A DNA stretch of 64,000 nt, taken from the NCBI RefSeq assembly GCF_038006205.1, contig NZ_JBBOUU010000001.1:2110001-2174000 (forward strand), written 5' to 3'. The stretch is from Solibacillus sp. FSL R7-0668. GTDB lineage: Bacteria > Bacillota > Bacilli > Bacillales_A > Planococcaceae. Under the pieces are notes generated by a model, which was given only the letters and a program-made list of their open reading frames with translations, was not told the origin of the DNA and made no database searches. The position numbers were made by a program, and so were the translations under genes. Below are positions 16,979-20,191 of this stretch, piece by piece (the stretch's first letter is position 1; each line of letters starts with the position of its first letter).

Positions 16979-17320
16979 TTAATCGTTTAGTGCAATTAAT
17001 TTTAATTGGTCACCGTAATCTTTATATTGGTTGTAAAAATGTAAAATATCCTGCACATATTCGTCGCTGTGGTTGTATTGGTATATTGCCTTTTTGAATT
17101 GACCATCCTTCACCCCAGCAATCGATAAAAATTTGGCTGCACTAAAAACGGCATCCTCAATATCGAACGGATCAGCTACTCCATCACCATTTGCATCTAC
17201 CCCGTAGCCTCCGTATTTTTTTATAATGGCGGGGTTTGTTTTATCCTTATCTGGAATATCACCCTGGCCTAGTCCCTTACATGACGGGTGCTGCCAGCCA
17301 ACAAATGTACAGGGCATGAA
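16979..17320 (-). CDS. Lytic transglycosylase, exon 2 (3' part, after the group II intron)
   Basis: This is the C-terminal 113 codons of a peptidoglycan lytic transglycosylase whose 5' part lies at 19844-20191. It begins TTC ATG CCC, so that splicing joins GHLQ to FMPCTFVGW, the usual motif of the family. Without splicing only an unlikely fragment from the ATG at 17317 could be made. The domain includes VDANGDGVADPFDIEDAVFS and a C-terminal QYNHSDEYVQ stretch, as in soluble lytic transglycosylases. Confidence 0.85.
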   Translation of the reverse strand, partial: FMPCTFVGWQHPSCKGLGQGDIPDKDKTNPAIIKKYGGYGVDANGDGVADPFDIEDAVFSAAKFLSIAGVKDGQFKKAIYQYNHSDEYVQDILHFYNQYKDYGDQLKLIALND

Positions 17321-17381
17321 GTAGAGTAAGAACCCAGCGCCTTGGCATATTTCTATGCTAGGTTTCCAAGAACTCCTCCCC

Positions 17382-17415
17382 GAACCGTACGTACACCTCT
17401 CAGCGTATACGGCTC
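17382..17415 (-). ncRNA. Group II intron domain V
   Basis: A 34-base hairpin with the catalytic domain V layout, GAGCCGTATAC paired to GTACGGTTC-type 3' strand with a GAGA-type tip. It is followed by a domain VI-like stem before the 3' splice site. Confidence 0.85.
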
Positions 17416-17423
17416 TCCACCTA

Positions 17424-19247
17424 TCAGTCTAATTTACCGTTGTGTAAGTCAACGTGGCATTTCTTGCATAGTGCCATCGTCTTACGGTTTCTTTCAATCA
17501 TACGCTTTTCCCATCGTTTTTTGCCCTCGAGGTCTTTTAACTTCTTAATATGATGAATTTCTAAATCCACATTTGTGGCATGGCACCATTCACATTCCTT
17601 TGCTACAAGTCTTTCAATAAGCCCTGTTCGGTTGTAAATAATGTTTCTTGTCTTAGAAATAACATCAACATCGGCATATGAAGATGGTAATAGTTTCTTT
17701 TTGAATCCATCTTTGTAGAAGAAAGCGATTTTACTGCCGTTGGCAGTTTCATATCTAACCGCAAAATCTCCGTTAATACTGTATTTTCTATGGATTTTTC
17801 TAACGCTTGATTTATATTTGTTTGCGAATGTTTTATACATGCTATATTCCATAATGAATTTAAAGCCATCTAGTTTATAGACATTGTTCGCTAACTTGTA
17901 ATAATTATATAAACCTCTAATTTCCGCATTGTAAATCATCAATATTTCAAGGTCATCGTTTTGCAGAAGATGCGCTCGATGCGTGGACTTCCATTTTTGT
18001 GTCTTTTGATCTATTTCTAACGCTTTATATTCGATTAATTTATTTCGCCATACTTCATGTGGCAAAAGAAGTTCACAGCTCATTGTACGTGTTCTTTGTT
18101 TATGTCCACTTGCTGTATACTTTGTCGTTTTATTATCATGACTGATTTTAATATCATATCCAAGAAATCTTGCTCTTTTACTTGAATGCGTAATGAGCGT
18201 CTTTTCTTGTGATAATTCAATTTTCAGTTCTTCACTTAGGAAAGTGCTGATGTCATGTTTTATTTGCTGACAATCTTCTTTACTACCGATTACACCGATT
18301 ATGAAATCATCGGCATATCGCACATATTGTATTCGTTTGTAGTTTTCATCCATTGGGTCTTTATAGGGCAATTCCATCATGTGATTTTTCAACTCGTCCA
18401 AGTGTTGAAGTGCTTGTTCCTTTTCTTCCTCGTTCATTTCTTCCCATTTTTCCTTATATCTAGCATTAGCTCTGTATAATCTGGCTTCTCTTGTGCGGTA
18501 TTCCGTTAAGCGTTTTCTCCCTTTACCTCTATCAAACTTTTCTTTATAAGCTAGTACAAAGTTATCTAATTCATTTAGATATATATTTGAGAGAATCGGG
18601 CTAATGATGCCGCCTTGTGGTGTACCACTGTACGTTTTGTGATATTGCCAGTCCTCTAGAAAACCCGCTTTCAGGAATTTCCAAATTAAATCGATGAATT
18701 TTTCATCGTTAATTCTTCTTTTAAGGATTTCTATTAGTTTGTGATGATTAATGTTATCAAAGAAACCTTTAATATCACCTTCCACAAACCATTTAGCGCC
18801 AGTAAATCTGTCTTTTACTTGCATGAGTGCAGTATGACAGCTTTTTTCCGGTCTGAAACCATGGGAATGGTTCGAGAAAGTTTTTTCATACATTGCTTCC
18901 AGTAGTGTTCTTACAACTTCTTGAACTAATTTATCTTCGAAAGATGGTATACCTAATGGTCTTTTACCACCGTTCTTTTTTGGAATGTAAACCCTTTTGG
19001 ACGGTTTTGGTTGATAACTACAATCTTTTAGACTTTCAATTAATCTTTCAATGCGTTCTAGACTCATACCATCAATAGTTTGTCCGTCGACACCTTGTGT
19101 CATATTGCCTTCTTTCGCGTAAATCTTTGCGTAAGCCATTAAATAGAATTCCACGTTATACAGATTTCGATAGATTCGTTCGAATTTGTAATCTTCGCGC
19201 GTTGATTGTTTTGTTAGAATGTCTAACACAGTGTTTGGACTTCTCAT
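17424..19247 (-). CDS. ltrA: Group II intron reverse transcriptase/maturase with HNH endonuclease
   Basis: The 607-residue protein is full length. It has reverse transcriptase blocks with SGTPQGGIISPILSNIYLN and the catalytic YVRYADDFIIG (YADD), a maturase domain X in about residues 420-530, and a C-terminal HNH module with CEWC, EIHHIKKLKDL and CKKCHVDLH. It assists splicing and, in the family, drives retrohoming. No stop or frameshift is seen, so the intron may still be mobile. The start ATG at 19247 lies inside the intron RNA. Confidence 0.95.
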   Translation of the reverse strand: MRSPNTVLDILTKQSTREDYKFERIYRNLYNVEFYLMAYAKIYAKEGNMTQGVDGQTIDGMSLERIERLIESLKDCSYQPKPSKRVYIPKKNGGKRPLGIPSFEDKLVQEVVRTLLEAMYEKTFSNHSHGFRPEKSCHTALMQVKDRFTGAKWFVEGDIKGFFDNINHHKLIEILKRRINDEKFIDLIWKFLKAGFLEDWQYHKTYSGTPQGGIISPILSNIYLNELDNFVLAYKEKFDRGKGRKRLTEYRTREARLYRANARYKEKWEEMNEEEKEQALQHLDELKNHMMELPYKDPMDENYKRIQYVRYADDFIIGVIGSKEDCQQIKHDISTFLSEELKIELSQEKTLITHSSKRARFLGYDIKISHDNKTTKYTASGHKQRTRTMSCELLLPHEVWRNKLIEYKALEIDQKTQKWKSTHRAHLLQNDDLEILMIYNAEIRGLYNYYKLANNVYKLDGFKFIMEYSMYKTFANKYKSSVRKIHRKYSINGDFAVRYETANGSKIAFFYKDGFKKKLLPSSYADVDVISKTRNIIYNRTGLIERLVAKECEWCHATNVDLEIHHIKKLKDLEGKKRWEKRMIERNRKTMALCKKCHVDLHNGKLD

Positions 19248-19843
19248 AGAGCCTCACGCTCCTTTCCAATTTTAGTTAGACGAGATAAGCTGTTCCCCTT
19301 CGCCATGTAGTGGGCTTTCCCCACCTCGGACTACTACGGGAACTCCGTTACCATATCAGATATTCAGATACATATTTATCATAGCTCTTATACATAAGCG
19401 TTCTGACGTAGGTAATCACCATTTAGCACATATAAGAACAAGCACGATGTAATGTCGGATATGACGTTCGCCCTTTACCATTTATTATAGTTGGTCAGCG
19501 ATAGACTACGCACTTTTGACATGCAGTTAATCAAAGTGTATCCAGAGATGGTCTCCAATTCCCCATTCTGTTTCGCTGTATGACGTAAATAATCATCTTC
19601 CGTCATAGGTGGGACAATAACCCCCTCGGACTGTCATTCAGGCAGTTTAGCTTTTATCCTCGTTTACATCTTTTCATTTTGCTATTCAGTCGTATCGTGA
19701 TGATTCGATAACTCATAGCTTTCCCAACATGCTACACTCCCCGATATTTGGTTTCCCTCACGGATAAGTTGGGTAATGATAGGCATTGTAGTCTCGCCTA
19801 CTCCTTGCTAATGGAGATTTCTTATATGACCTTATGGTCGCAC

Positions 19844-20191
19844 TTGAAGATGTCCTTCTGCCCCAACTGGTGAGACGAGTGTTTTCATGGTAGAAAAGCG
19901 GGTTTCTACACGGTGATGTGCAGCCAGCAATGTCCAAGGCACTCCATATTTTTCTTCCGCTGCTACATAGATCGGAATGTATTCAATCGGAATGGCTAAA
20001 TCGAACTGCTCTTGAATTTGCTGATACACCGATTTTTCAGCGAACTGCTCCATAAATGGCAGTTCTCGAATTTGCTGCCAACTAAAATAGGCAAATATGT
20101 AGACTGTTAAAGCAATGGGGATTAATAATACGATTAAAAAAAGCTTTACATTCGGTGATATTATTGGTTTTTTCTTTTTGTTTTTTGCCAT
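19844..20191 (-). CDS. Lytic transglycosylase, exon 1 (5' part, before the group II intron)
   Basis: The 116 codons encode a basic N-terminus (AKNKKKKP), one membrane anchor (about residues 16-38) and the start of the SLT domain with a likely catalytic glutamate in HHRVETRFS, then SPVGAEGHLQ, where the intron interrupts. ATG at 20191 with a GGTGG site is preferred to the TTG at 20203. Spliced to exon 2 the protein would be about 229 residues, a membrane-anchored cell-wall enzyme. Unspliced RNA would give a truncated product ending VRP plus stop. Confidence 0.85.

Follow-up and report, generated by a model that had tools for sequence, protein, structure and literature searches.

A group II intron splits a chromosomal lytic transglycosylase gene of Solibacillus and has an identical copy in a conjugation-type relative of that gene

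Introduction

Bacterial introns are mostly found away from housekeeping genes, and the exceptions reported in the cited part of PMC4424553 include radC of Oceanobacillus iheyensis (intron O.i.I2) and recA of Geobacillus kaustophilus. A preliminary description of the locus studied here held that such introns usually sit in mobile elements or between genes; this is sound as a generalisation, but precedents exist. Both of these introns resemble ours in occupying chromosomal housekeeping genes of Bacillales (PMC4424553, in part). However, their host genes are different, and our intron keeps the YADD motif which O.i.I2 is said to lack.

A second group of related systems sits in conjugative elements. 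One of them, a Clostridioides difficile intron that interrupts orf14 of Tn5397, can splice and needs its own protein to do so (PMC4430133, in part). On plasmid pAW63 (Bacillus thuringiensis), B.th.I1 interrupts a conserved region of the Tn916 orf14-like gene, which is predicted to encode a conjugative cell-wall hydrolase and is described as resembling a lytic transglycosylase (the cited parts of PMC1196294 and PMC9673590). The host of the Tn5397 intron belongs to a conjugative element, whereas that of our intron in the DNA analysed here is a chromosomal lytic transglycosylase (LT) gene, with a conjugation-type gene carrying an identical copy. B.th.I1 shares a predicted cell-wall hydrolase host, but resides on a plasmid.

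Two further systems bear on behaviour rather than location. The Ll.LtrB and Ef.PcfG introns transfer between species, most probably via conjugation (PMC5072309, in part); our intron encodes an LtrA-like protein (541.7 bits), but the Ll.LtrB host is a relaxase gene. The surface-layer gene intron of Clostridium tetani is likewise in a cell-envelope gene, and according to the cited part of PMC3919590 growth conditions changed its splicing little. It differs from ours in having four alternative splicing reactions rather than one predicted phase-0 joint.

Group II introns in housekeeping genes and in conjugative cell-wall hydrolases are therefore already known. What is less usual here is that a chromosomal and a conjugation-type LT gene carry identical introns, and that a cluster of introns is bound to LT genes. 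No title or passage seen in our search of the open-access literature describes a chromosomal lytic transglycosylase gene interrupted by an intron.

The interrupted gene

The window, i.e., the whole 64,000-nucleotide stretch of Solibacillus sp. FSL R7-0668 DNA that was analysed, is chromosomal and comes from a 4.2-Mb genome. Its LT gene is on the minus strand and is interrupted in phase 0 at GHLQ/FMPC (here and below, a slash marks the junction). Exon 1 (19844-20191, 348 nt) encodes a membrane-anchor-like N-terminus and an ETRF motif and ends in GHLQ, while exon 2 (16979-17320, 342 nt including the stop) starts with FMPCTFVGW. Between them lies a group II intron of 2523 nt (17321-19843), also on the minus strand, which the preliminary description had reported as intact-looking and whose boundaries it had placed exactly.

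Omitting the intron in silico gives, as had been claimed, a single continuous frame of 229 aa (...GHLQ/FMPCTFVGW...) with a hydrophobic stretch near the N-terminus. Against the Pfam family SLT_2 (cut-off 24.3 bits), exon 2 alone scores 29.5 bits and the joined exons score 41.8 bits; exon 1 by itself has no Pfam match. The joined protein scores 23 bits against the NCBIfam MltB_2 subfamily, which is below the curated cut-off of 248.45. Unspliced RNA would read GHLQ-VRP-stop, closing the exon 1 frame three codons into the intron, so LT output must depend on splicing, and the earlier claim to this effect holds. Compared with the LT gene of genome G002, the exons have a dN/dS of 0.045 (dS 1.06), a low value which sums all divergence from G002 and so probably reflects mostly time before the insertion.

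Intron anatomy

Mobile group II introns start with GTGYG and end with AY, and the ends of this intron (GTGCG...CTAC) satisfy both patterns. The Rfam model Intron_gpII (RF00029, domains V-VI) matches 17321-17417 on the minus strand with 63.1 bits (E 4.9e-10, gathering score 40), and the match terminates precisely on the 3' splice site that had been proposed. In the predicted fold of domains V and VI, the A at position -7 is unpaired, making position 17327 (minus strand; base checked) the predicted branch point. At gathering scores, the only other RNA element that Rfam finds in the window is a tRNA.

The intron-encoded protein is a 607-aa RT-maturase-HNH protein (17424-19247, minus strand) with AGGAG upstream of its ATG. 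Its PF00078 (RVT_1), PF01348 (maturase) and PF21368 (HNH) domains all score above the Pfam cut-offs, and both YADD and the Cys/His residues of the HNH domain can be read; its score against NCBIfam TIGR04416 is 299 bits, slightly below the cut-off of 300. Every part listed in the preliminary description (GTGCG start, domain V, AY end and a full RT-HNH protein) is thus present. Among solved structures LtrA is the best match to the protein, and the intron is LtrA-like and probably belongs to the mitochondrial-like (ML)/IIA lineage, a placement suggested by the LtrA match. In IIA introns, the delta base beside EBS1 pairs with the first base of exon 2; here an A precedes EBS1 and exon 2 starts with a T.

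The empty site in relatives

If the boundaries are correct, a relative with an uninterrupted gene should join at the same bases, as the preliminary description had proposed checking. The closest named LT, that of Solibacillus palustris (91%), is uninterrupted, and its joint matches. The locus (L026) aligns to both flanks of the intron (890 bp at 84.9% and 1643 bp at 83.0%), reaching window position 19845 and restarting at 17320 with one subject base separating the two pieces. The break in the alignment therefore coincides with the intron boundaries, which rules out chance as their explanation.

The LT gene was found in all 16 genomes of the genus, and in the 15 others it is intron-free. More widely, the 80 LT loci kept from our search of genome contigs have match spans of at most 687 nt, leaving no space for an intron. 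At the codon level, 88 of 95 intact loci fit the junction pattern and read CAY-NNN-CAR/TTY, most commonly as CATATGCAA (40 of the 88) or CATATGCAG (22). The codon count omits the seven loci off the pattern (L034, L048, L052, L069, L073, L088 and L093), and the same species may occur twice among the 95. A tree of the host LTs, built from a short alignment and with no starred branch, places the window gene with Solibacillus and the genes of two other intron-bearing genomes (G042 and G063) with Lysinibacillus LTs (86/99).

An identical copy on a second contig

The same genome contains a second copy of the intron on C2, a 126-kb contig (G000:C2:48249-50771), and all 2523 of its 2523 bases are identical to those of the window intron. 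This copy is at the homologous codon boundary (GHTQ/FMDC) of another LT gene, whose second exon encodes SLT_2 and peptidase M23 domains. Around it are genes for TcpC, an AAA_10 ATPase and a VirD4-type coupling protein (type IV secretion), so the neighbourhood resembles a conjugation gene cluster. Upstream of these secretion genes there is also a gene for a NusG-like protein (L158:8478-9101). A search of the genome with PF13406 gives two SLT_2 genes only, both of them intron-bearing; a weaker LT relative is at C1:2714570.

Complete identity over 2523 bases is also what one would see if the C2 copy were an artefact of assembly or recombination rather than a second insertion. The window and C2 exons, however, diverge right up to both junctions, with identities of 58.3% (180 nt) and 68.2% (240 nt). 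A mis-join therefore fails to explain the C2 copy, as does an exchange with long flanks, and we consider an artefact next to impossible. Two insertions, with the intron copied recently in either direction between the secretion-bearing contig and the chromosomal LT gene, would account for the pair.

The intron lineage

Related introns occupy the same boundary in ten LT loci, all in phase 0 and all with both junctions read. Three of the ten are on chromosome-sized contigs (the window, G042 and G063). The other seven comprise the C2 copy, plasmids of Metabacillus, Priestia and Paenibacillus, a 690-kb Cytobacillus replicon and unassigned contigs of G417 and G392. In Priestia, exon 2 leaves the family sequence after FMVKTWV and runs into stops, which means that the host gene there is damaged. 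The plasmid search gave at least 5000 matching records, 30 of them listed; of the five that we read, four are LT loci and one is another site (L110).

The introns are more alike than the genes which carry them. Eight LT loci were compared in pairs: intron similarity exceeds that of either exon in 27 of the 28 comparisons, and the remaining pair (Metabacillus-Paenibacillus) is a tie on exon 1. For example, the window and G042 introns are 93.5% identical while their exons are 76.7% and 71.8% identical, and the corresponding values for the window and Metabacillus are 87.1% for the intron and 64.2% and 61.0% for the exons.

Other members of the family are in other genes. Searching 261 genomes at E <= 1e-180 gave 22 loci in 18 genomes: four LT, ten radC, seven addA and one whose site was unread (L125, in G081). 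Across the class (398 genomes), four genomes passed E <= 1e-240: our own, two with LT sites and one with an ssb site. In trees of the intron proteins, which took in six of the ten radC introns, those six form one branch (100/100), as do six addA introns (100/100 or 100/99) and eight LT introns (97/98 in the first tree, 100/100 in an enlarged one). The first tree did not contain the G417, G392 or ssb introns, whose proteins are 64%, 61% and 62% identical to that of the window intron, which puts the ssb intron no further away than these two LT introns. Adding them weakens the support for one LT clade, as the branch joining all ten LT introns has 76/67; G417 and G392 pair together (91/82) and the ssb intron joins radC (87/92). 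A seventh addA intron, at a different codon, also joins radC (94/94). Each cluster is thus confined to a single conserved stretch within a single gene.

Several individual sites are worth recording. The addA gene of our own genome is split in frame by a related intron (52% protein identity) at KQSI/YAFR (L014:1965-4494, G000:C1), and the same site is occupied in G009, G011, G035, G042 and G058. In two addA loci, L127 (G042) and L122 (G036), an apparent second intron end lies just upstream of the first, near DEYQD, the motif which is split by a pcrA intron in our own genome. The ten radC introns of the family search (L113-L121 and L126) are at HPRE[IV]/, and four of the ten intron-protein matches contain a stop codon. 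In G322, an ssb-like gene (L163) is split after QVRN and continues with YENKEG. Among the matches listed were also a 57%-identical intron protein in Bacillus phage BUCT083 (ON107264.1:85897-87705) and a 58%-identical one on a Klebsiella grimontii plasmid (CP079755.1:135298-137112), the latter being a possible jump to Gram-negatives.

Homing element or regulatory switch

In introns of the Ll.LtrB type, the encoded protein binds the intron RNA and aids its splicing, and the resulting RNP enters a DNA site lacking the intron by reverse splicing and copies the intron there. We consider it very probable that our intron is a retroelement of this kind, i.e., an LtrA-like intron which homes into the DNA for the GH-x-Q-F-M motif of LTs, spreads largely on conjugation-type plasmids and is spliced out in frame. 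This is because the same boundary is used in ten LT genes, the introns are more alike than their hosts and the radC and addA sites are fixed. Exact boundaries, an empty site, an identical second copy and one site per clade can all be read from the DNA itself. The weaker 76/67 branch does not affect this explanation, because a single origin of all ten LT introns is not its basis.

In the proposed mechanism, the lineage would target the DNA encoding the conserved catalytic GH-x-Q-F-M motif of SLT_2-type LTs. Conjugation-type plasmids, which encode the same motif in an LT gene of their own, would do most of the carrying between species, and movement between plasmid and chromosome would rely on reverse splicing and target-primed reverse transcription. 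Once transcribed, the intron RNA would splice out with the aid of the maturase, joining the exons in frame to allow production of the LT protein. Since the motif is common to chromosomal and conjugation-type LTs, the intron could spread from one replicon to another and, aboard plasmids, from one species to another.

The preliminary description had instead suggested a switch, with the host using the intron to regulate LT output in response to Mg2+ or temperature, to which growth state could be added. The dependence of LT output on splicing fits this, as does the presence of the intron in both SLT_2 genes that Pfam detects in the genome. It is nevertheless highly improbable: the other 15 of the 16 genus genomes have an intron-free LT, the lineage is scattered over LT genes and replicons in the fashion of a mobile element, Rfam gives no further RNA element in the window (the tRNA apart), and in the C. 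tetani analogue conditions altered splicing little (PMC3919590, in the part cited). The suggestion of a host switch thus gives way to a lineage which behaves as a homing retroelement at ten LT genes.

Exon pairing and splicing efficiency

How well the window copy splices may depend on its pairing with exon 1, for which the candidate elements are all on the minus strand. EBS2 (TGTCC, 19612-19616) pairs with IBS2 (GGACA, 19851-19855, within exon 1) at five of five positions, all Watson-Crick. EBS1 (CTGCAT, 19521-19526, in a hairpin loop) pairs with IBS1 (CTTCAA, 19844-19849, the end of exon 1) at only three of six. Over the ten LT loci, EBS1-IBS1 pairing is 6/6 in G063, Metabacillus, Cytobacillus, Priestia and Paenibacillus, 4/6 in C2 and G417, and 3/6 in the window, G042 and G392. 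The total of 47 is not above that of shuffled partners (mean 47.2), so the full pairing in five loci is consistent with the EBS1 assignment but does not prove it.

Two other approaches were tried and rejected. Automatic choice of a hairpin loop (17 introns, 16 usable) gave own pairings that beat the shuffles (0/20000), yet for most LT introns it picked loops other than the EBS1 hairpin, and we therefore set it aside. We also looked by eye for a displaced 5' splice site of the kind known from C. tetani; the one better match seen upstream would disrupt the frame.

The poor EBS1 match raises an alternative in which the window intron splices badly and thereby suppresses most of the chromosomal LT output, a loss that the host can bear. 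A score of 3/6 is nothing unusual for hexamers taken at random (of all 4096, 1088 score exactly 3 against EBS1 and 1648 score 3 or more), and the nearest intact LTs have CTGCAG (L026, L129) or TTGCAG (L128) at the IBS1 position, which would pair at five of six. Group II introns can also cut host expression by attacking spliced mRNA (PMC6003770, in part). However, EBS2-IBS2 pairing is complete, the window exons are open and conserved, and G042 retains an open split LT despite the same 3/6. There is also a loop adjoining EBS1 (TTGGAGA, 19552-19558, minus strand) which could pair at seven of seven positions with the seven bases that end exon 1, although this may be chance. On balance we regard a knock-down as unlikely while giving it some weight, and in-frame splicing by a homing intron remains our preferred reading.

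Because a group II intron can target mRNA (PMC6003770, in part), a quantitative effect on LT is possible without any switch. A more elaborate version would have one intron coupling two LTs that answer to different masters: RNP from either copy would reopen or retarget both the chromosomal and the conjugation-type LT mRNA, tying conjugation to wall turnover via shared EBS-IBS pairing, and the weak EBS1 match in the host would be an escape from mRNA targeting at the cost of slower splicing. We put this forward as a long shot.

Significance

The strain carries introns in other needed genes as well. Only one gene of its genome was found to encode a PcrA tudor domain; this gene is split in phase 1 at DEYQD-(T)NKTQ (L016:2462-5139, minus strand, in G000:C1:3495500-3503500) by another, different group II intron, which encodes a 625-aa RT protein. 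As pcrA is essential in B. subtilis, this intron probably must splice.

Finding one intron both in a conjugation-type gene and in that gene's chromosomal relative offers a snapshot of a homing intron crossing from a mobile element to a housekeeping gene. As addA and the one pcrA gene found are split too, the strain would be well suited to studying how bacteria cope with introns in genes on which they depend, a problem which has been addressed mostly in organelles.
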